A model generated the notes under the pieces. It ran no database searches and was not told where the DNA came from. It was given only the letters and a program-made list of their open reading frames with translations. Both the position numbers and the translations under genes were made by a program. Shown here one piece after another: positions 16,922 through 33,711 of a stretch of DNA of 64,000 bases (position 1 is the stretch's first letter; the number at the start of each line of letters is the position of its first letter). Origin of the DNA: Deltaproteobacteria bacterium (lineage in GTDB: Bacteria; Desulfobacterota; GWC2-55-46); the NCBI GenBank assembly GCA_015075075.1, contig JABTVA010000002.1, positions 129,985 through 193,984 of the forward strand, read 5' to 3'.

Positions 16922-19012
16922 CTGATTATCGCGCCGCTCATAACAGCCGTCCTGTGCGCCGGGCTGGGCGTTTTCACCCTTTTAAGAAACCCGCGCCGCC
17001 TGGCAAACATAGGGTTCGCTTCGGGCATGGCCTGCCTTGCCATCATCGAGGCCGGGATCGCGCTTGCCCTGCTATTCCCCGGCGCCTGGAACGCGGGCAT
17101 GCGCATCAACCTTGCAGGCCAGGCTATGCTTCCGGCTTCCTGGCTCCTCTTCTCTATAGTATTCGCCAGGGCCGGCCATAAGGAAATCTTCAGGAAATGG
17201 CTGCCGGCTTTCGCCATATTCTTTTTAATTTCTGTTGTTTTCGCTTATTTGACGGGGCTTTCCAGCTTTATAGAATACCACCCGGCAGCTGCCGGCCAGG
17301 AGGCCTTCTTTTCTTCGGCCCCGCTTTATTCGCTCGGTCCCGCAGGCAAATACTTCTACATCTTCATGCTCCTCGGGCTCGTGCTTAACCTCGTGCACCT
17401 TGAGAACACCCTCAAGTCCTCGTCCGGCCAGAAGAGATGGCAGATAAAATACATAATTTTCGGCGTGGGCGGGACACTGGCGTTCTATGTCTTTCTTTCG
17501 AGCCAGGCCCTCCTTTTTTCGGCCATAAACGCGGAAATGCTTGTCCTGGCCTCGGTCATCACCCTCATAACCGTTTCCATGACCGCGGTCTTCATAGTAA
17601 GGCACAGGCAGCTCGAAGTCGACATATTCGTGTCGAGGTACGTGGTATACGGCTCGTTCACCGTCCTCGTCGTCGGCCTGTACCTCATAGGCATGGGTGT
17701 GGTAATAAGGGTGATACGCCACCTGGACATCCCCCTCGGCTTTTTCTTCACCGCGCTCTTCATATTCGTGTCGCTCCTCTTCCTTGCGCTCCTCCTTTTC
17801 ACGTCCTTTCTGCGGAGGAAGGTACAGCTCTTCATAAACAGGCACTTCTACAGCCACAAGTACGAGTTCCGGGACAAGTGGATGGAGACCATCGAAAAAA
17901 TCAGCTCGAAAAGGAGCGTCGGCGAGATAACATCCACGCTTACCGAGCTCATATCAGAGACGACCGGCGCCAGGGGCGTTCATCTCTGGCTTCTCGACCC
18001 GGTCACCGGCAAATATGTGAATACCGCGCCCGGCCAGGAAAAAGGCCCGGGGCAGATAGGGTACGATCACCCCATACCGAGGCGCATAAAAACCGATAAA
18101 GACCCCTTCTTTTTATCCGAAATACCTGATATGGGGCCGAGCCTCGCTGCCTGGCCCGAGGCGGTCCTTTGCGCGCCGCTTGTCGCGCACGAAGAGCCCG
18201 TCGGGTTCGCCCTCCTGGGGAGCGATATCTCCGGGGAAAAATACCGGCAGGACGATTTCGACATACTAAAGGCCATGACCACGCAGGCGGCGGTCCAGAT
18301 AAAGAACATACGCCTCGACCAGGACGTCATGGGCCTTAAGGCGATGGAGGGGTTCAGCAAGGCATCGGCCTTCATAATGCACGACCTTAAAAACCTCACG
18401 AACACCCTTTCCCTGGTCAGCCAGAACGCCAGGCACAACATGAACGACCCCTCGTTCCAGAAGGACGCGATTAACACCATAGACGCCACGGTCGGAAGGA
18501 TGAAGACCGTCATAGAGCGGCTTTCAGCCTCCGACGGCGGACTGGTCATAAGGCCGAGGGATACGGACCTGCGTACCGTCGTAAACGGCGCGCTTGGGAA
18601 GCTCTCCCTCGCGGAGAAAAAAGACGTCAGGCTGAGTATAAACCTCGAGAAAGCTCCGGTCGTTACGATTGACCCGGAAGTGATGGAAATGGTATTCCTG
18701 AACCTCCTCTCTAACGCGTTTGACTCGATAGAAGGGAAAGGCGAGATCTCCATAAGCTCAGAACCCGTAAAGGGCGGCGTACTCATAACGGTCTCTGATA
18801 CCGGGAGAGGCATGCGGCCGGAGTTCGTAAGGGAATCGCTCTTCAGGCCGTTCATGACCACGAAAAGGAACGGTTTCGGAATAGGCCTGTACCAGTGCAA
18901 GAACATAATCGAGGCCCACGGCGGGACCATCGACGTGGAGAGCGCCCCCGGCGCGGGTACCGCCTTCAGGATACTCTTCCCGGGCGGGACTGAAGCGCTG
19001 ACGCCGGCCTGA
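16922..19012 (+). CDS. prsK: PEP-CTERM system sensor histidine kinase PrsK
   Basis: About 696 residues. The N-terminal half has seven or eight membrane helices. A GAF domain follows at about 300-450. The phosphoacceptor motif is SAFIMHDLKNLTNTLSLVSQ, and the ATPase domain shows NLLSNAFDSIEG, DTGRGM and GFGIGLYQCKNIIEAHGG. This architecture is that of PrsK, partner of PrsR in exosortase systems. The first canonical start is ATG 17027, but that would delete the first helix. The reading frame is open from the in-frame stop at 16904 and offers only CTG 16922 or ATT 16925 behind a G-rich ribosome-binding-like run, so a miscalled base at the start is possible. Confidence 0.87.
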   Translation: MIIAPLITAVLCAGLGVFTLLRNPRRLANIGFASGMACLAIIEAGIALALLFPGAWNAGMRINLAGQAMLPASWLLFSIVFARAGHKEIFRKWLPAFAIFFLISVVFAYLTGLSSFIEYHPAAAGQEAFFSSAPLYSLGPAGKYFYIFMLLGLVLNLVHLENTLKSSSGQKRWQIKYIIFGVGGTLAFYVFLSSQALLFSAINAEMLVLASVITLITVSMTAVFIVRHRQLEVDIFVSRYVVYGSFTVLVVGLYLIGMGVVIRVIRHLDIPLGFFFTALFIFVSLLFLALLLFTSFLRRKVQLFINRHFYSHKYEFRDKWMETIEKISSKRSVGEITSTLTELISETTGARGVHLWLLDPVTGKYVNTAPGQEKGPGQIGYDHPIPRRIKTDKDPFFLSEIPDMGPSLAAWPEAVLCAPLVAHEEPVGFALLGSDISGEKYRQDDFDILKAMTTQAAVQIKNIRLDQDVMGLKAMEGFSKASAFIMHDLKNLTNTLSLVSQNARHNMNDPSFQKDAINTIDATVGRMKTVIERLSASDGGLVIRPRDTDLRTVVNGALGKLSLAEKKDVRLSINLEKAPVVTIDPEVMEMVFLNLLSNAFDSIEGKGEISISSEPVKGGVLITVSDTGRGMRPEFVRESLFRPFMTTKRNGFGIGLYQCKNIIEAHGGTIDVESAPGAGTAFRILFPGGTEALTPA

Positions 19013-19026
19013 GGCCTTCTTATTAA

Positions 19027-20384
19027 ATGGGAAATCCGAGATTACTGATAATAGACGATGACGAGCACATCCGGACCCAGATGAAATGGGCCCTTGTGCA
19101 GTACTATGACGTCTGCCTTGCAAAGGACGGCGAGCAGGCGATGGAGGCCCTCCAGGGCGGGGAATTCCCGCTCATACTGCTGGACCTGGGCCTCCCCCCG
19201 GACCCGGAAGGCACCTCCGAGGGGCTCCGCCTCCTCGGAAGCATACTGGGCCAGGACCCGGCTTCGAAGGTAATAGTGCTCACCGGCAACCCCGACCGCT
19301 CTGCCGCGCTCTCGGCAGTGTCCCTGGGCGCACGACTTCTTCACCAAGCCGCAGACCTCGATGAGCTTAAGCACACACTCAGGCGGGCCCATTACGTACA
19401 CACCCTTGAGGGCCGAATACAGGGCCCTCCAGACGCAGCCCGCGTCCCATGTTTTCATCGGCGGGATCACCGGGACGAGCGGCAGGATGCGGGAGATATT
19501 CTCGACCATAAAAAAAGTGGCCGGCAAGGACGTACCCGTGCTCATTACGGGAGAGAGCGGCACCGGAAAAGAGCTCATAGCGCGCGCGATACACAGCCAC
19601 AGCTCGCGTTCGGGCATGCCCTTGTTGCAATAAACTGCAGGGGCCATACCCGAAAACCTCATGGAGACCGAGCTTTTCCGGGCACGAAAGGGGCCTTTAC
19701 CGGCGCGCACGCGAAAAGGCGGGCAGGATAGAGCTCGCGCAGGGCGGCACCCTCTTCCTGGACGAAATAGGGAAATTGCCGCTCCAGCTCCAGGTGAAGC
19801 TCTTGAGGTTCCTGCAGGACCACAGCATAGAGAAGGTCGGCGGAGGCGAGCCCGTTCAAATGGACTTGCGGGTCATGGCGGCCACGAACAGGGACCTCAC
19901 GGCCCTCATAAAGGAGGGCCGGTTCAGGGAAGACCTCTACCACAGGCTCGCGGTCGTGTCAGTCGAGTCCCGCCGCTAGGGAGCGCGGCGAGGACATAGT
20001 GCTACTTACGAGACCTTCCTTAGAAGTATTCGGAACAATCTGCCGAGCGAAACTCCTCAGCAGGACGCCCTCGACGCCATCCTTGGTCATGACTGGCCAG
20101 GGAACGTAAGGGAGATGGAAAACAGGGTGCGGAGGGCCCTTGCGCTCTCCGAAGGCCCGGTCGTAACCTCCTCGGACCTCGGGTTTGCGGAAAAGGAGCA
20201 GCCGCAGACCCTCGATTTAAGGAAAGCCAGGGAAAACCTCGACGTAAGACTCATATGCACCGCCATATCCATGCACAACGGCAATATAAGCAAGGCTGCA
20301 GAGGAGCTGGGCCTCAGCAGGCCCACCCTCCACCAGCTTGTAAAGAAATACAATATTACTACGAAGCTTGAAAGGAGCAATTGA
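19027..20384 (+). CDS. prsR: PEP-CTERM system sigma-54 response regulator PrsR (several frameshifts)
   Basis: NtrC-type activator. The receiver domain comes first ([11 protein letters not shown], phospho-acceptor Asp in [10 protein letters not shown]). The AAA+ domain has Walker [16 protein letters not shown], the sigma-54-contacting [10 protein letters not shown] loop, and TLFLDEIG with [13 protein letters not shown]. The Fis-type helix-turn-helix is at the end ([20 protein letters not shown]). These parts lie in different frames, broken at about 19330, 19400-19420, 19625-19690, 19720 and 19975-20010. All domains remain recognisable, which argues for sequence errors. It starts 14 bp after prsK; its TGA overlaps the next ATG (TGATG). 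It should drive the sigma-54 promoters at 25228 and 29115. Confidence 0.8.
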
Positions 20385-21706
20385 TGTCGCGAAATTTCAC
20401 TAAGCTCGCAGGCCTGATAAAAGACAAGAAGGCCCGCGTAGGGATAATCGGGCTGGGCTACGTGGGGCTCCCGATAGTGCTCCGCTTCTGCGACGTGGGG
20501 TACAGGGTCACCGGCTTCGACGTCGACCCTGAAAAGGTCCGGCTTTTGAGAAAAGGCAAGTCTTATATAAAGCACATCCCTTCGGGCCTCATATCCAGGC
20601 TGGTCAAGGGCAGGAATCCCTCCTTCAAGGCCACGACCGACATGTCGGAGCTTGCCGGGATGGACGCCGTCATAATATGCGTGCCCACCCCGCTTTCGGA
20701 CAAGCGCGAGCCCGACCTCTCATATGTCGAATCCACTGGCGCCGAAATCGCGAAATTTCTCAGGCCGGGCACTCTCGTCTCCCTCGAATCGACTACCTAT
20801 CCGGGGACTACCAGCGAACTCCTCCTTCCCATGCTCGAGGCCGGCGGGCTAAGGGCGGGCAAGGACTTTTTCCTCGTCTTCTCCCCCGAAAGGGAGGACC
20901 CAGGCAGGGTGGACTTCAGCATAAAGACCACCCCCAAGATAGTCGGCGGCATAACCGCGGAATGCTCGGAGTTAGGCTCCGCCCTGTACTCAAAGATAGT
21001 CGACAGGGTCGTGCCCGTCTCCTCCACCCAGGTCGCGGAGATGACGAAGCTCCTCGAGAACATCTACAGGAGCGTCAATATAGCGATGGTGAACGAACTC
21101 AAGATGCTCTGCCACAGGATGGATATCAACATCTGGGAGGTAATAGAGGCTTCCAAGACCAAACCCTTCGGCTTCCAGGCCTTTTACCCGGGCCCGGGCC
21201 TGGGCGGGCACTGCATACCCATAGACCCGTTCTATCTCACCTGGAAGGCCAGGGAGTACGACTTCTCGACCAGGTTCATAGAGCTTGCCGGGGAGATTAA
21301 CTCCAACATGCCCTATTACGTAGTCACCAGGGTAATGGAGGCGCTTAACGAGCGCGGCAAGAGCCTCAAGGGCTCGAAAATTCTCGTCCTCGGCATCGCA
21401 TACAAGAAGGACGTGGACGACTTGAGGGAATCGCCGTCTTTAGAGCTCATCAGGATACTCAGGGAGAAAGGGGCGGAGGTCGACTATAACGACCCGTACC
21501 TCCCGCTGGCGATCAGCCACAGAAGGCACTTCAGGATGCGTTCTACCCCGCTTACGGAGGCGAATATCGGCAAGTATGACTGCGTGCTCATCGCGACCGA
21601 CCATTCGTGCTACGATTACAAGTGGATAGCGAAAAACAGCAGGCTCGTGGTTGATACCAGAAATGCTACGGCCGGCCTTAAGAGGCGGAATATCGTAAAG
21701 GCCTAG
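20384..21706 (+). CDS. UDP-N-acetylglucosamine 6-dehydrogenase-type nucleotide-sugar dehydrogenase
   Basis: 440 residues of the UDP-Glc/GDP-Man dehydrogenase family, closest in pattern to WbpA/VipA enzymes that oxidise UDP-GlcNAc to the uronic acid. NAD binds at GIIGLGYVGLPIV. The catalytic Cys is in GPGLGGHCIPIDPFYL, and the C-terminal domain begins with GSKILVLGIAYKKDVDDLRE. Its ATG overlaps the prsR stop by one base, so expression of the precursor enzyme is coupled to the regulator. With the epimerase downstream it would supply an acidic N-acetylated sugar, a plausible substrate for the amidotransferase at 7529 (inference). Confidence 0.88.
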   Translation: MSRNFTKLAGLIKDKKARVGIIGLGYVGLPIVLRFCDVGYRVTGFDVDPEKVRLLRKGKSYIKHIPSGLISRLVKGRNPSFKATTDMSELAGMDAVIICVPTPLSDKREPDLSYVESTGAEIAKFLRPGTLVSLESTTYPGTTSELLLPMLEAGGLRAGKDFFLVFSPEREDPGRVDFSIKTTPKIVGGITAECSELGSALYSKIVDRVVPVSSTQVAEMTKLLENIYRSVNIAMVNELKMLCHRMDINIWEVIEASKTKPFGFQAFYPGPGLGGHCIPIDPFYLTWKAREYDFSTRFIELAGEINSNMPYYVVTRVMEALNERGKSLKGSKILVLGIAYKKDVDDLRESPSLELIRILREKGAEVDYNDPYLPLAISHRRHFRMRSTPLTEANIGKYDCVLIATDHSCYDYKWIAKNSRLVVDTRNATAGLKRRNIVKA

Positions 21707-21707
21707 G

Positions 21708-21855
21708 AGGGTGTTGAAAAGCACCTTGTTAAGCAATCCACGGATGGACTGCCAAATTGCGAAGACTATCCAAGTCGGGCAATGTAAGGCTTGGTCGTAT
21801 TCATTCCGGCCAAGCCGTGGTTGAAAAAGTCCAGGAAGGACTTTTTCAACATCCT
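21708..21855. repeat. Dispersed palindromic repeat R1, copy A
   Basis: 148-bp element bounded by AGG-G-TGTTGAAAA and its inverted form ending TTTTTCAACATCCT. It is the reverse complement of copies at 31306-31454 and 32983-33133. Inside are sequences able to form hairpins: GGACTTTTTCAAC with its mate, and the CTTGGTCG/CGGCCAAG pair. It starts 2 bp after the dehydrogenase stop and ends 23 bp before the epimerase start, so it sits inside a transcript. No transposase frame is present, as expected of a MITE-like or REP-like element. Confidence 0.85.
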
Positions 21856-21878
21856 GATAGGCCTGGAAAGGGACTTTG

Positions 21879-24217: not shown

Positions 24218-24220
24218 CTC

Positions 24221-24373
24221 TAACAGGCTGCTGAAAAAGTCCATCTGCGTCGTTATCTTCGTCGCTCGTCACTGCGGCGTACACGAAAGTACGCCTCATT
24301 CCTCGCTCCTCGACGCCTCGCATCTGGAACTTTTGAGCAGCCTGAATAAAACGGGTTTTCAGCAAGCTGCTAA
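24221..24373. repeat. Dispersed palindromic repeat R2, copy 1
   Basis: About 153 bp, starting TAACAGGCTGCTGAAAAAG and ending with the inverted GCAAGCTGCTAA. The centre holds GGCGTACACGAAAGTACGCC, a hairpin. It is the reverse complement of the copy at 55451-55609 along its whole length, with scattered changes. No coding capacity. Confidence 0.85.
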
Positions 24374-24424: not shown

Positions 24425-25175
24425 CTAAGCTCTTTTCCTTCTGAGCCAGCGTGCAAATATATGCCGACCAGCCCGCCTTCCGAGGTATAAGGGTGCCAGC
24501 TCAGGCACGCGCCTGGATTCGGCGTCATGCGAGCAGGGCGAACATGGTTATATCGTAGTCTTCGCCGCTTCCGAGCTTGGCGTTGTAAAGGTCGAAATGG
24601 ATGACATGCTCCGGGTCCAGGAGGCTTGTGTCGATCGTGAACGCGGCATAGTACATGAGGCCGTCCTGTATGAGTCTTTCCCCGTCGATGGCCCTGTACA
24701 TGGTGTCGTATCTCTCGGTCATGTCGTTTTCGTTGAAGTGAACCCGTACTCGTAGAAATAGGTCGGGAATACGCCATGCGGCTCAAGGTCTCCGGTATCC
24801 CAGTCGTTCGTTTCAGAGGCCGGTATAGATCTCATCAACCGGCGGGTCCCGTAGGTCATGTCCGAGGTGACGTTAATGGTCGTCCCGTTGATAGTGAAGA
24901 CCCGAGCCTGCCGCCTCCGCGGAGTATTCAAGCGCGGGCAGGACGGCAATCGAAAGATAGAACATGTCCGAGATGTTATTATACTTGCTCGGGTTCAGAA
25001 AGGCATACAGCGTGAAAGCGTCGTCCCTGGCCACGATAGTCTGGGTGTTTAAATCATATCCTCCGTCCTCGATATCGAGCTGAAGGGCCGGAAGGGCCTG
25101 GCTCGCGGAGGGCGTAAGCGCCACGACTGAAGCTGCCAGCACGGCTATGGCGATATACTTGAGCTTGGTAAACAT
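24425..25175 (-). pseudogene. PEP-CTERM protein, paralog of 28319-29062, frame broken in several places
   Basis: Secreted protein with a signal peptide (ending SASQA-LPALQLDI) and the same body as the paralog at 28319: GGYDLNTQTIVARDDAFTLY, FYLSIAVLPALEYS, then in other frames FPTYFYEYGF, LIQDGLMYYAAFTIDTSLLD and VIHFDLYNAK. Shifts lie near 24903, 24738, 24533 and in the C-terminal tag, where GTGCCTGAG (VPE) is followed by disrupted codons before a basic tail. The tag may be decayed or miscalled. Its sigma-54 promoter and upstream sites are intact, which argues that the gene is or recently was functional. It resembles the choice-of-anchor-type PEP-CTERM families; function unknown. Confidence 0.7.
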
Positions 25176-25227: not shown

Positions 25228-25247
25228 TAGCAACAGTTGTGCCAAAA
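25228..25247 (-). promoter_or_regulatory. Sigma-54 promoter of the PEP-CTERM paralog
   Basis: On the minus strand TTGGCAC-AACTG-TTGCTA, with GG (25243-25242) and GC (25231-25230) exactly ten bases apart: a full match to the -24/-12 consensus. Transcription would start near 25218 and read into the gene starting at 25175. The 317-bp gap between this gene and prsT contains this promoter, two dyads and the prsT ribosome-binding site. Confidence 0.87.
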
Positions 25248-25315
25248 CCATTCACAGCAAAAAAAGCCTGTGCGTTCAGGGCCTTAGTGAATCCGTGCAT
25301 CGCAATTACGGAAAG

Positions 25316-25334
25316 ATGTAAAGCAACCTGACAG
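25316..25334. promoter_or_regulatory. Upstream dyad II, candidate PrsR site
   Basis: ATGTAA-N7-TGACAG, centred about 95 bp upstream of the -12 GC of the sigma-54 promoter. The same half-sites and the same 7-bp spacer occur at 29204-29222 before the other PEP-CTERM gene, at the same distance. Confidence 0.6.
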
Positions 25335-25414
25335 GTTCGGGGTAATCTCGGCGTAGCGTGCCTTCTCCTGTTCTTCTGTCTTTTCAGCAACTTAAACGTC
25401 ATCAGCCTGAACGG

Positions 25415-25433
25415 CTGTAAGGAAATTTTACAG
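25415..25433. promoter_or_regulatory. Upstream dyad I, candidate PrsR site
   Basis: Perfect palindrome CTGTAA-N7-TTACAG, centred about 194 bp upstream of the -12 GC and about 99 bp beyond dyad II. The counterpart before the other PEP-CTERM gene is at 29301-29319 (CTGTAA-N7-TTACAC). It lies 60 bp before the prsT start and could also influence prsT. Confidence 0.65.
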
Positions 25434-25492: not shown

Positions 25493-27766
25493 ATGCTATC
25501 CGCTCTCAGGTTTGTTTTCCCGCTCCTTTTGGCTTTTTCGGTCCTGTCTTGCGGGCTCGGAGCTGACAGGAAATTCGAAAGCCACATGCGGAAGGGAAAG
25601 GCGCACATGGAGGCCGCAAAATACAGGGAAGCCGTCCTTGAATTCAAGAACGCCTCAAAGGCAGACCCTGATAGCGCGGAGGCGCGCTACCTCCTGGGAA
25701 CGGCCCTCATGTCCTCCGGCGGGGTCCCTAACATGCAGCTCGCGTACAGGGAGTTCAGCGCGGCGGCAGACCTGGACCCGGGGCTCATGGATGCGCAGCT
25801 GAAAGTAGGGGAGTTCCTGCTGCTATTACGGGATTTCGACGGCGCCAGGGAGAAGGCCCGGCTCGTCCTCGGAGCGGAACCTGAAAGGTTCGAGGCGAAG
25901 TTGCTCCTTTCCGGCGCGCTGGCGGCAGGCGGCGACCATGCAGCGGCGCTCTCCATACTCGACGGGCTTATCGCGTCGAGGCCGGACGAGATGAAACCGT
26001 ACATGGCCGCGGCATCCATCCATCTGTCAAGAAAGGACTTGAGGAGGGCGGAGACGGCACTGAGGAGAGCGGTCGAGGCCGATTCCGGTTCCCTGGAGGC
26101 CCGCGTCGCCCTGGCCGAAATTTACCTCGGCCAGGGAAAGAAGGGCGAAGCCCAGGATGAAATGGAAAAAGCGGTGGAACTCAACAAGGAGAGCCAGGAC
26201 GCGCTTCTGGCCCTCGGCTCGTTCTACCACGCGACTGGCAGGCCTGGGGAGGCGGAAAAAACATTCATTTCCGCCATTGACCTCAAGCCTGAAAGCCCGA
26301 AAGGCTACATCGCGCTTTCGGATTTCCTGGCCGCTTCAGGAAGGAAACCGGAAGAGGCGGCCGAGGTCCTGGGAAAAGGCATAGAAAAGAGCGGCGACCT
26401 GGCCCTGAGGAAAAAGCTCTCGGCCCTTAGAATAGATACTGGCGCCCTCAAGGAGGCTCTTGAGGAGATCAAAACCATCCTTGAAAAGAGCCCGAAGGAC
26501 CCCGAAGGGCTATATCTAAGGGGCAAGCTCCTTCTGGCCAAGAGGGACTTCCAGGGCGCGATAGGCGACCTCAAGGCCTCCTTGAAGGCAAACCCCCTCT
26601 CCGCTGAGGCCCATTTCGCCCTGGGGCTCGCGTATCAGGCGGACGGGAACGCGCAAATGGCCAAAACCGAGTTCCTCGAGGCGCTCAGGATTTCCCCGGG
26701 GCTCTCCGCCGCGCGGCTTGCGCTCGCAGCAGCCTATCTGGGCTCCGACGAGCTTCGCCTTGCCTCCGAGGAGGCTAAAAAAGTCCTTACGAAGAGCCCC
26801 GACCACCCCGGTGCAAACCTCCTCATGGGGGACATATCGCTAAAGGAGAGGAAGTATAAAGAGGCCGCGGTCTTTTTCAGGAAGACCATCAAATCGGCAC
26901 CGGCGGACGCAAGGGGTTACGTCCGCCTCGGCACGGCGCTTGAGCTTCTGGGCGAGCACAGGGCAGCGCTCGATGTTTTCGAACGCGCCTACGCGAAAGA
27001 CCCGAGACTGCTGAATGTGCTATCGATGATAGCCTCTATCCATATCGCCGACAAGAACGCGGGCAAGGCCCTGGCCAGGGTCGGCTCGGAGCTTGAGAGG
27101 TCTCCGGACAACCCCCACTTGCACCATCTGCTTGGCCGCCTTTACATGCTCACGAAGGACCTAAACAAAGCGGAAGACCTGTTCAAAAAAGCGCTCCGGC
27201 TCAAAAACGACCTTACGGCGGCTTACCTGGACCTGGGAGGCCTGTATGCGCTCAGGGGTGCGCTGGACGAGGCTGTCCAGGCAATACAATGAGGCCGTAC
27301 AGCTGGGCCCAGACATCATCTCCGGGCACATGATGCTGGCGGTGCTCCATGAAAAGAAGGGCGGAAAAAGAAGCGGTCGAGAGCTATAAAAGGCCCTCGA
27401 AATCAACCCGTCCTTCGTGCCCGCGGCAAATGACCTGGCATGGCTCTATGCCGAGGGAGGAATATCGACGTAGCCATGTCGCTGGCCGAAACGGCGAAAT
27501 CGCTGGCGCCCGAAGACCCTAACGTGTCAGACACCCTGGGCTGGATATATTATAAGAAGGGGGTCTACATGAAGGCCATTTCGCTTCTCAGGGAAAGCGT
27601 GGAAAAAGAGCCGGATAATCCCGTGATACGATATCACCTCGGCATGGCGTACTACAGGAAAGGCGATGCCGCGCTTGCTGAAAGGGAATTGAAGAAGGCC
27701 CTCGGCCTTAAAGGCGATTTCCAGGGCTCGAAGGAAGCCAGAGAGGCGCTTGGGAGCCTCAAATGA
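25493..27766 (+). CDS. prsT: PEP-CTERM system TPR lipoprotein PrsT (frameshifted near its end)
   Basis: About 757 residues of tandem tetratricopeptide repeats after a lipoprotein signal (FSVLSC lipobox). Repeats such as AAKYREAVLEFKNASKADPD and VEADSGSLEARVALAEIYLG run to the end. This is the long TPR protein that accompanies PrsK/PrsR in exosortase A systems. ATG 25493 follows AAGGAGG at 25479. The frame is lost at about 27285-27465 by three or four one-base shifts; restored reading gives GPDIISGHMMLAVLHEKKGG and continuous TPRs to 27766. It lies between the two PEP-CTERM paralogs, divergent from the first. Confidence 0.83.
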
Positions 27767-28318: not shown

Positions 28319-29062
28319 TCAGCTCCTCTTTCTTCTCATGCGGCCGTGCACATAGAAGCCTACCAGGCCGCTTCCGAGGAGTATGAGCGTGCCTGGCTCA
28401 GGCACCTTCCTTGATTCCGCGTCATGCGAGAAGGGGGCGAACATGGAGATATCGATATCTCCGCCTCTTGCTACTTTCGTGTTGTAAAGGTCGAAATGGA
28501 GGACATAGTCAGAGGCAAGCCGGGTGGTATCCAGTGAGAACGAAACGTAGTACATGAGGCCGTTTTCAGTCTCGACGGTCCCGGTAATCGCCCGGTCCTG
28601 GGTATTGTACGTGGCGGTCGTGTCGTTCTCGTTGAACTGGAACTCGTGCTCGTAGAAGTAGGTCGGGTAGACGTCATGAGGGGCGAGGTCGCCTCCGTCA
28701 AAGGTGCTATAGTACCCTTCGACGGGCGGGGTACCGTAATACATCTCCGAGGTGACATTGAAGCTTGTTCCGTTGAGGCTGAAAGACCCCAGGTCCAGGC
28801 CCTCTATGGAATACTCGAGCGATGGCAGGACAGCGATCGAGAGATAGAACGAATCGCTCAGGAGGTTATAGTCGTTCGTTTTCAGGAACGCGTAAAGCGT
28901 AAAGGGATCGGAATTGGCAACGATCGTCTCTGTTGTGAAATCATAGGTTCCGCCTTCTATGTCGAGCTGCAGGGCGGGAACGGCATGGCTTACGGTCGGC
29001 TTAAACCCCAGCATCAGAACGGCGGCCACGGCCAGCATGGAATATTTTATCTTGGCGAGCAT
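28319..29062 (-). CDS. PEP-CTERM sorted surface protein (intact paralog)
   Basis: 247 residues. Signal peptide (LMLGFKPTVSHA-VPALQLDI), an acidic, beta-rich body of about 195 residues, and a canonical PEP-CTERM tag: VPEPGTLILLGSG, a hydrophobic helix and the basic tail RMRRKRS. Exosortase is expected to cut at the PEP motif and release or anchor the protein at the outer surface. ATG 29062 is chosen because AAGGGGGGAAG lies just upstream; the open frame extends nine codons further. The body resembles choice-of-anchor PEP-CTERM families with unknown ligand. Driven by the sigma-54 promoter at 29115. Confidence 0.88.
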   Translation of the reverse strand: MLAKIKYSMLAVAAVLMLGFKPTVSHAVPALQLDIEGGTYDFTTETIVANSDPFTLYAFLKTNDYNLLSDSFYLSIAVLPSLEYSIEGLDLGSFSLNGTSFNVTSEMYYGTPPVEGYYSTFDGGDLAPHDVYPTYFYEHEFQFNENDTTATYNTQDRAITGTVETENGLMYYVSFSLDTTRLASDYVLHFDLYNTKVARGGDIDISMFAPFSHDAESRKVPEPGTLILLGSGLVGFYVHGRMRRKRS

Positions 29063-29114: not shown

Positions 29115-29132
29115 AAGCAACCGCCGTGCCAA
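29115..29132 (-). promoter_or_regulatory. Sigma-54 promoter of the PEP-CTERM gene
   Basis: Minus-strand TTGGCAC-GGCGG-TTGCTT, with GG (29130-29129) and GC (29118-29117) ten bases apart, a full -24/-12 match. Predicted start near 29105, about 43 bp before the ATG. The 370-bp gap up to gspM contains this promoter, the two dyads and otherwise AT-rich DNA without a gene. Confidence 0.88.
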
Positions 29133-29203: not shown

Positions 29204-29222
29204 ATGTAAAATAAGCTGACAG
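29204..29222. promoter_or_regulatory. Upstream dyad II, candidate PrsR site
   Basis: ATGTAA-N7-TGACAG, identical in both half-sites and spacing to 25316-25334, centred about 96 bp upstream of the -12 GC. Confidence 0.6.
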
Positions 29223-29300: not shown

Positions 29301-29319
29301 CTGTAAAAAAAACTTACAC
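29301..29319. promoter_or_regulatory. Upstream dyad I, candidate PrsR site
   Basis: CTGTAA-N7-TTACAC, one base short of a perfect palindrome, centred about 97 bp beyond dyad II. Counterpart of 25415-25433. Confidence 0.62.
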
Positions 29320-31288: not shown

Positions 31289-31305
31289 CTATGGCCCTCT
31301 CTATC

Positions 31306-31454
31306 AGGTGTTGAAAAAGCCATTCCTGGGCTTTTTCAACCACGGCTTGGCCGGAATGAATACGACCAAGCCTCACAAATTGCTCGACCTGGATAGTCTT
31401 CGCAATTCGGCAATCCATCCGCGGATTGCCTGGCAGGGTGTTTTTCAATACCCT
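31306..31454. repeat. Dispersed palindromic repeat R1, copy B
   Basis: 149 bp between gspK and gspL. Ends: AGGTGTTGAAAAAG at 31306 and TTTTTCAATACCCT at 31454. Same orientation as copy C and opposite to copy A. Internal hairpin GTTGAAAAAGCC with GGCTTTTTCAAC. It abuts the gspK stop within 3 bp. Confidence 0.86.
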
Positions 31455-32410: not shown

Positions 32411-33021
32411 CTTATCATGGTCCTCGAAAGCGCCGTAAATTCCCTTCCGTCCCTTAAGACCACCCTGGCCCTTACGGCCAGGGGGAGCTTCTTTTCAAGG
32501 GACGCCTCCCATGCGTTGGCCCAGGCCGTGCCGTTACTGTAGCTCAACTCGAAGGCCTCGATGCCGGAGAGCGCCTCCGAGACGAACCTTTCGCCTATAT
32601 GGGGGTTCCACGTCTCCCTGTAAAGTGTAAGCCCCCCGTCTTCATGCTTCGCGAAGTAGCCTATGGCCATGAGGTCCGTGGAAGGGGCTCCCTCCCGCTG
32701 GGGCTCCGCTGAATACGATGTAAACTCCAGGGCCGAAGCCCCTGCCCTCGTCTTTCCGGAAAAGGCGGTACGGGGCTCTTCGGGGCTGAAGTACGCGGAG
32801 TTGACCTCGCCCGAAAGCCTATCGAGGAACATCCCGGCCTCCAGGTCCCTCTCGAGCGAACCACCGGTCCTTTCTCCCGCGCCGAGCACGCTCATGAGGA
32901 CGCCGTAAAACGAAAGGAGCGCAATAGAGCCGACCGCGAGCGCAACGAGCACCTCTATGAACGTAAACCCGCTATTCCTAACAGGATGTTGAAAAAGTCC
33001 TTCCTGGACTTTTTCAACCAA
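32407..33021 (-). CDS. gspJ: Type II secretion minor pseudopilin GspJ, leader encoded by repeat R1
   Basis: About 205 residues with the prepilin helix SGFTFIEVLVALAVGSIALL (Phe +1, Glu +5) and a GspJ C-terminal domain (FAKHEDGGLTLYRETWNPHI). The native leader is missing: the codons before the NSGF cleavage site run directly into repeat R1 copy C. The nearest in-frame start is TTG 33021, giving an 18-residue leader read from the repeat; GTG 33054 and TTG 33084 are alternatives. Whether this leader is translated and cut by PilD is untested. No gspI, gspH or gspG lies upstream. Confidence 0.75.
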   Translation of the reverse strand: MVEKVQEGLFQHPVRNSGFTFIEVLVALAVGSIALLSFYGVLMSVLGAGERTGGSLERDLEAGMFLDRLSGEVNSAYFSPEEPRTAFSGKTRAGASALEFTSYSAEPQREGAPSTDLMAIGYFAKHEDGGLTLYRETWNPHIGERFVSEALSGIEAFELSYSNGTAWANAWEASLEKKLPLAVRARVVLRDGREFTALSRTMIR

Positions 33022-33133
33022 GGCTTGGCCGGATTCATTCCGGCCAAGCCTCACAAATTTGCCCGACTTGGATAGTCTTCGCAATTTGGCAATCCGTCCG
33101 TGGATTGCCTGGCAGGGTGTTTTTCAACAACCT
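32983..33133. repeat. Dispersed palindromic repeat R1, copy C
   Basis: 151 bp, ends AGGATGTTGAAAAAG and TTTTTCAACAACCT. Shows the family structure most clearly, as three consecutive hairpins: a 13-bp stem (GTTGAAAAAGTCC), a 12-bp stem (AGGCTTGGCCGG) and an 8-bp stem (GGCAATCC). It overlaps the 5' end of gspJ. Confidence 0.87.
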
Positions 33134-33711
33134 GCTGGCTGCGGGGCGGCTGGTGAACTGATGTTTAGCGCTGTTCGACTCTATCTCTCGTGGATTTTAT
33201 AATACCTTTTTAAACAGGGCAACAAAAACCGGGCTTGTTTTCACAGAAATCGTATCTGGCGAATATCAGCATTATCTCCCGCCCCGGTTCTCTCCCGGCA
33301 AACCCGAATCATTTTTTTACGTGCTCCCTCTATTCAATTCAGCTCACAGATGGATTCGAGATGAATGTGTTCGGGCCGGTGGCCAGGCATTTCTTTATTT
33401 CAGATAAGTATCGGACAGGTTACTTGTTAAAAGATATCTTTCGACGCGGCTTTGGATGAAAAGGAATGTACTTCGGGAGGACGGAGGAGAAGACAAAAAA
33501 TAGTCTGGTGTAATAAACTACCCCGCCGCAAGCAGCGTGGTATCTACAAACCTCCCCTCCCTTGATGGGAGGGAATAAGAGGGGAGGGTGAAATTTCTTT
33601 ACCCCATCACAGCTTCCCCCATCAAGGGGAAGAGTCAAAAAACGCGCCGCAAGCGGTAGGAATTCAACCCCTAAGGATTAAAAGAATCTAAATGAGCTTT
33701 GTCTTTTTTAA
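33134..33711. other. Gene-poor stretch containing repeat R3
   Basis: 578 bp without a convincing gene. It is AT-richer than its surroundings. Short open frames on both strands have no recognisable domains and no ribosome-binding sites. Its only clear structure is repeat R3 copy 1 at 33521-33660. This is where gspG-I would be expected if the secretion operon were complete. Confidence 0.7.
33521..33660. repeat. Dispersed palindromic repeat R3, copy 1
   Basis: About 140 bp built from runs such as CCTCCCCTCCCTTGATGGG and their complements. Its reverse complement aligns with 39910-40036, sharing TTTCACCCTCCCCTCTTAT in the centre. Flanked by CCGCCGCAAGC-like ends. Confidence 0.8.

Follow-up and report, generated by a model that had tools for sequence, protein, structure and literature searches.

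The window analysed here, a 64,000-nt stretch of contig JABTVA010000002.1 (positions 129,985 to 193,984, forward strand), contains a PEP-CTERM gene cluster with its own regulatory genes. The histidine kinase gene prsK (17027..19012, plus strand) scored 401.4 bits with TIGR02916 (cut-off 300), and beside it lies prsR (19027..20365, plus strand), which encodes a sigma-54 response regulator. Two PEP-CTERM genes are located on the minus strand. The first (24428..25175) was assigned to the choice-of-anchor N family through its orthologue, and the second (28319..29062) encodes a choice-of-anchor N protein of 247 aa (NF038141, 151.7 bits) with the C-terminus VPEPGTLILLGSGLVGFYVHGRMRRKRS, which scored 21.5 bits with TIGR02595 (cut-off 16). 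The TPR protein gene prsT (25493..27766, plus strand) is divergent from the first PEP-CTERM gene; it scored 245 bits with TIGR02917 and its orthologue scored 353.7 bits (cut-off 312.2).

Three of these genes are broken in the assembly. prsR falls into three reading frames, and frameshifts interrupt the first PEP-CTERM gene as well as prsT, the latter near its 3' end (about 27277-27460), while all three are intact in the two congeneric genomes G197 and G283. The breaks coincide with patches of short indels at 19328-20088, 24428-24910 and 27277-27460, and these indels are patchy, mostly short deletions, several of them in homopolymers. We aligned prsR with its copy in G197, and the results showed 21 gap openings and 94 mismatches, 65 of them at third codon positions; neighbouring genes such as ugd contained no indel. 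The nonsynonymous/synonymous ratio of prsR was 0.41, compared with 0.29 between the two intact relatives, and that of the first PEP-CTERM gene was 0.55 in both comparisons. Because the mismatches in prsR are still mostly third-position and its copy is intact in both congeneric genomes, its breaks look like sequence errors, and the same reading probably holds for the first PEP-CTERM gene and prsT. The third-position bias in prsR and the indel-free ugd make a dying regulon the less likely explanation.

Two further elements were also observed in the cluster. Members of a repeat family, about 150-165 bp long and with ends that are complementary to each other (TTGAAAAA...TTTTTCAA), occur at 21698-21860, 31301-31452 and 32974-33139; both relatives carry the family at this cluster as well, and a search for it in Rfam gave no match. 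A hairpin-forming element with the ends CAGGCTGCTGAAAAAGTCC / TTTTGAGCAGCCTG lies at 24220-24346, directly past the 3' end of the first PEP-CTERM gene.

The first-pass annotation had claimed that both PEP-CTERM genes carry a full -24/-12 site, with two dyads at matching distances upstream. We located a perfect TGGCAC-N5-TTGCT on the minus strand before each gene, at 25229-25244 (TGGCACAACTGTTGCT) and 29116-29131 (TGGCACGGCGGTTGCT); these are the sole zero-mismatch sigma-54 sites within the window, and both are kept in G197 and G283. Sequence inspection and pattern scans placed two dyads of the form TGT(A/C)A-N7-TTACA before each gene, all on the minus strand. Dyad II, the proximal PrsR-type site, lies at 25316-25334 (ATGTAAAGCAACCTGACAG; CTGTCAGGTTGCTTTACAT toward the gene), 72 nt before the -24 element of the first gene, and at 29204-29222 (ATGTAAAATAAGCTGACAG), 73 nt before that of the second. 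Dyad I, the distal site, lies at 25415-25433 (CTGTAAGGAAATTTTACAG; CTGTAAAATTTCCTTACAG toward the gene), 171 nt before the -24 element of the first gene, and at 29301-29319 (CTGTAAAAAAAACTTACAC), 170 nt before that of the second. Measured from the -12 GC, the centres of dyad II are thus 95 and 96 bp away, and a further 99 and 97 bp separate dyad I from dyad II, in agreement with the distances claimed. Searches of the 2.6 Mb genome returned a single exact match to CTGTAA-N7-TTACAG, which is dyad I of the first gene, and two exact matches to ATGTAA-N7-TGACAG, which are the two copies of dyad II; since every exact match genome-wide is one of these dyads, they are not chance occurrences.

We then aligned both promoters across three congeneric species. 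The results showed that 45 of 50 motif positions were invariant in the first promoter, compared with 90 of 230 flanking positions (Fisher 1e-11), and 45 of 50 in the second, compared with 114 of 230 (Fisher 3e-8). Both dyads and the promoter are kept in G197 and G283 while the flanks drift, and the footprint includes both dyads of the first gene. Outside the motifs, the two paralogous upstream regions gave a local alignment score of 13, compared with 11.4 (SD 1.7) for shuffled sequence, indicating no excess likeness. The motif layout is therefore common to two otherwise unlike intergenic regions, as had been noted, and selection has maintained it, even if a gene duplication is how the two genes came to share it. 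A scan for the IHF consensus with at most one mismatch found no match in either upstream region.

To survey the genome, we used a composite pattern in which about 45-75 nt separate a single dyad from a sigma-54 site, with the reversed pattern as a control. The composite pattern matched three times, each time before a PEP-CTERM gene, and the control did not match at all; G197 and G283 likewise gave exactly three matches, at the same three genes. The third PEP-CTERM gene (contig C1, 132 aa) belongs to a different family and has a perfect sigma-54 site with one dyad 51 nt upstream. This module is conserved in three species, and a scaffold of UBA5799 ('Deltaproteobacteria bacterium', a close lineage) bears a clear relative of the gene together with its promoter. 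RpoN is encoded in the genome. A genome scan with GG-N10-GC alone was too unspecific to serve as a promoter finder. Two further dyad loci were rejected as regulon members: C34:27795/27908 has a one-mismatch sigma-54 site and precedes a broken non-PEP gene, and C12:65181/65282 has only weak sigma-54 matches, one of them overlapping a start codon. At the latter locus (C12:65181-65300), the two dyads are 101 bp apart, a spacing near that in the window, and are flanked by a glycosyltransferase-like gene and by a small secreted-protein gene.

The association extended to other genomes of the same phylum. Among the 27 PEP-CTERM loci that could be oriented, 16 had a dyad and a sigma-54 site upstream, compared with none of the 27 when the opposite strand was scanned (Fisher 1e-6). 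Enrichment of the dyads before other PEP-CTERM genes had been set beforehand as the test on which the proposal should stand or fall, and it was found both here and at the third gene. PrsR proteins above the TIGR02915 cut-off and PEP-CTERM proteins occurred together in 14 of 20 genomes and were both absent in the other 6. When a simple rule on the C-terminus was applied to 86 TGTC-type sites among the matches listed, 58 were scored as leading into a PEP-CTERM gene, 13 ran off the end of the locus and 15 were scored 'no', of which at least one resembles a missed PEP-CTERM variant.

A related arrangement was observed in Bacteroidales. Where the records among the matches listed are named as such (L122, L135, L175, L181, L201 and L205), pairs of TGTAAAG...CTTTACA-like dyads lie 52-54 and 74-76 nt before TGGCAC-N5-TTGC, about 22 bp or two turns apart and in the same helical phase, and they precede genes that are not PEP-CTERM genes. 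These pairs belong to another sigma-54 regulon whose dyad is almost the same, and the dyad alone is therefore not unique to PrsR.

The gap between dyad and -24 element was already clustered in our first collection of PEP-CTERM promoters. We examined it in 86 sites among the matches listed, with gaps left free between 30 and 120 nt. The results showed peaks at 42-43, 50-54, 60-65, 71-75 and 83-86 nt with almost nothing between them, and the best period was 10.65 bp (R = 0.78), a strength reached in none of 5000 gap-jittered controls. Among 398 genomes drawn at random from the phylum of Aquabacterium, only 5 matches were obtained, so the phasing data come mostly from genomes already known to carry the motif, and for this reason sites found with the 45-75 nt gap filter were separated from unselected ones. 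For the 39 sites that were neither gap-selected nor from this genus, the jittered controls likewise never reached the observed strength, proteobacterial sites alone gave a period of 10.85 bp, and one site per genome gave R = 0.80. In a separate relaxed scan, 16 of 16 sites from the window's own phylum fell within a quarter-turn of the proteobacterial phase (p = 1.5e-5), although relatives and paralogous promoters are not fully independent and the phasing p-values are therefore guides. In the scored set, no PEP-CTERM-associated TGTC/TGTA site was more than 3 bp off phase.

The distal dyads follow the same phase in this genus, lying within 2.3 bp of it at a period of 10.85 bp. The two dyads, for which the first-pass annotation suggested that binding may be cooperative, are 97-99 bp apart, which fits nine turns of about 10.85 bp, but in other genera the distance of the second dyad varies from 20 to 238 bp. 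The position of the distal dyad would allow a second PrsR unit to sit on the same helix face. The quantised gap (about 42, 52, 63, 74 or 85 nt) indicates that PrsR probably acts from one helix face by short looping. We consider it likely that PrsR obeys a stereospecific rule across Proteobacteria and the window's phylum, in which the proximal dyad stands whole turns of about 10.65-10.85 bp from the promoter, the distal dyad shares its face and the loop is short and rotationally fixed, and that this rule predicts the regulon better. It would serve as a better filter for regulon members and, if true, a 5-bp insertion should abolish activation and an 11-bp insertion should spare it, which makes for a sharp and cheap test of looping.

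Taken together, the region is very probably a PrsR-controlled sigma-54 promoter of the kind predicted in 2006. Sigma-54 RNA polymerase would wait at the -24/-12 site, and PrsR, thought to be phosphorylated by PrsK, would bind dyad II (TGTCAG-N5-TTTACA) with its near end 72-73 nt upstream of the -24 element. PrsR probably also binds dyad I, about nine turns further. From there it would reach the polymerase through a short DNA loop on a fixed helix face and open the promoter, so that PEP-CTERM proteins would be made together with exopolysaccharide. PEP-CTERM proteins and their exopolysaccharide help to build flocs and biofilms, and their on-switch is only partly known.

The dyads had been proposed as enhancers for the PrsR encoded 5 kb away. 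Their enhancer-like behaviour within a sigma-54 PEP-CTERM regulon bears out the first half of this proposal, but they cannot be assigned uniquely to that PrsR. The gene is present at the expected place, but it is frameshifted in the assembly, and a second, intact PrsR (about 560.5 bits) is encoded on contig C6 (L037 1103-6862) next to a PrsK-like kinase that scored 265 bits, below the cut-off of 300. The recognition helices of the two PrsR proteins, one of which is LSRPTVHHIIKKYN, are almost identical to each other and unlike those of the other readable sigma-54 activators. With two PrsK/PrsR pairs and near-identical helices, the adjacent PrsR need not be the acting one; either PrsR, or both, could act. 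That the enhancers are of the same kind but are served by the C6 PrsR, or by both proteins together, rather than specifically by the local one is a serious possibility, which we nevertheless hold to be somewhat less probable than not. It draws on the intact C6 gene beside its kinase, on the frameshifts in the window copy and on the shared helix, but the window prsR is intact in two congeneric genomes and its mismatches still fall mostly on third positions, so that its breaks look like sequence errors, and its placement in the PEP-CTERM cluster favours the local protein. The C6 locus also encodes a nucleotide-sugar dehydrogenase and a further sigma-54 response regulator. In two other genomes (G242 and G119), PrsR-family proteins above the TIGR02915 cut-off carry the helix SRQYLS... 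rather than SRPTL/V... and, judging from the helix, may read another site.

Two other explanations concern the dyads themselves. Dyad I might lie outside the PEP-CTERM enhancer and do something else, for instance regulate the divergent prsT. The first-gene dyad I is indeed about 60 bp from the prsT start, and a second dyad is absent at many PEP-CTERM promoters elsewhere. However, dyad I stands equally far upstream of the second PEP-CTERM gene, where no divergent gene follows immediately behind it, all three species retain both dyads, visual inspection showed no GG-N10-GC between dyad I and prsT, and prsT transcription in Aquincola is not rpoN1-dependent (PMC9850573), all of which leaves this explanation unlikely. 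We regard it as highly improbable that an NtrC-type activator other than PrsR occupies the dyads, or that the layout is a mere relic of the duplication of the PEP-CTERM paralogues. An unrelated PEP-CTERM gene, the third of the genome, carries the dyad and sigma-54 module too. Outside the motifs, no similarity was detectable between the upstream regions of the two paralogues, which points to selection. Across genomes, the sites go together with PrsR and PEP-CTERM, and PrsR of Desulfovibrio vulgaris binds PEP-CTERM targets (PMC3333781). These observations outweigh the many sigma-54 activators in the genome, the paralogy of the two window genes and the service of near-identical dyads to other genes in Bacteroidales. 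PrsR control of these promoters remains the preferred reading.

The dyad layout, which the first-pass annotation had offered as a new regulon code, is not new, because Haft et al. 2006 described the same motif pair with PrsR as its proposed reader (PMC1569441). In that study, a 17-nt motif 1 ending in TTTACA, sometimes repeated, was followed by the sigma-54 motif 2 after a spacer of 62.8 nt (SD 10.6, range 32-92), and the pair preceded 99 of 167 proteobacterial PEP-CTERM genes in a set that included Geobacter and Desulfovibrio (PMC1569441). Read toward the gene (form TGTCAGNNNNNTTTACA), dyad II is TGTCAGGTTGCTTTACA and TGTCAGCTTATTTTACA at the two window genes, with gaps of 72 and 73, and fits motif 1 by its text definition; a -24(GG)/-12(GC) site corresponding to motif 2 lies upstream of both. 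The downstream genes agree as well, the second by exceeding the TIGR02595 cut-off and the first through its intact orthologues, and the third is also a PEP-CTERM gene. PrsK, PrsR, PrsT and RpoN are all encoded in the genome; the cluster copy of prsR is frameshifted here, as is prsT near its 3' end, but both are intact in relatives. The two systems thus share motif 1 and the -24/-12 site, with spacers here of 72, 73 and 51, before single PEP-CTERM genes in the presence of PrsK, PrsR and PrsT. They differ in that both paralogues here have two copies of motif 1, 97-99 bp apart. In addition, the spacer was published as a mean and SD only, which is all that we found for PrsR, whereas here it is multimodal with the helical repeat; this quantisation goes beyond the published work that we found.

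Other systems provide further points of comparison. The helical sensitivity of sigma-54 enhancers is known in principle, for example for LuxO/NtrC-type regulators at Vibrio qrr and synthetic enhancers (PMC4740811); their loop lengths are bound to the helical repeat in the same way, but the regulators and sites are different and are not those of PEP-CTERM genes. In Aquincola tertiaricarbonis, the PEP-CTERM gene pepA is rpoN1-dependent, with a mapped -24/-12 site and a predicted upstream enhancer, and prsT transcription is independent of rpoN1 (PMC9850573). The arrangement resembles ours in having a PEP-CTERM gene beside prsT, a -24/-12 site and a predicted enhancer upstream, but it belongs to another lineage, and prsT is downstream of pepA there and divergent here. 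In D. vulgaris, DAP-chip showed that PrsR (DVUA0057) enriches its five predicted PEP-CTERM targets (Rajeev et al. 2011, PMC3333781); that is another organism, and the study validated no binding motif. Conservation, co-occurrence and the genome-wide count support the 2006 prediction for PrsR in a further deltaproteobacterial lineage, and the window promoters are a new instance of this known switch in another bacterial lineage.
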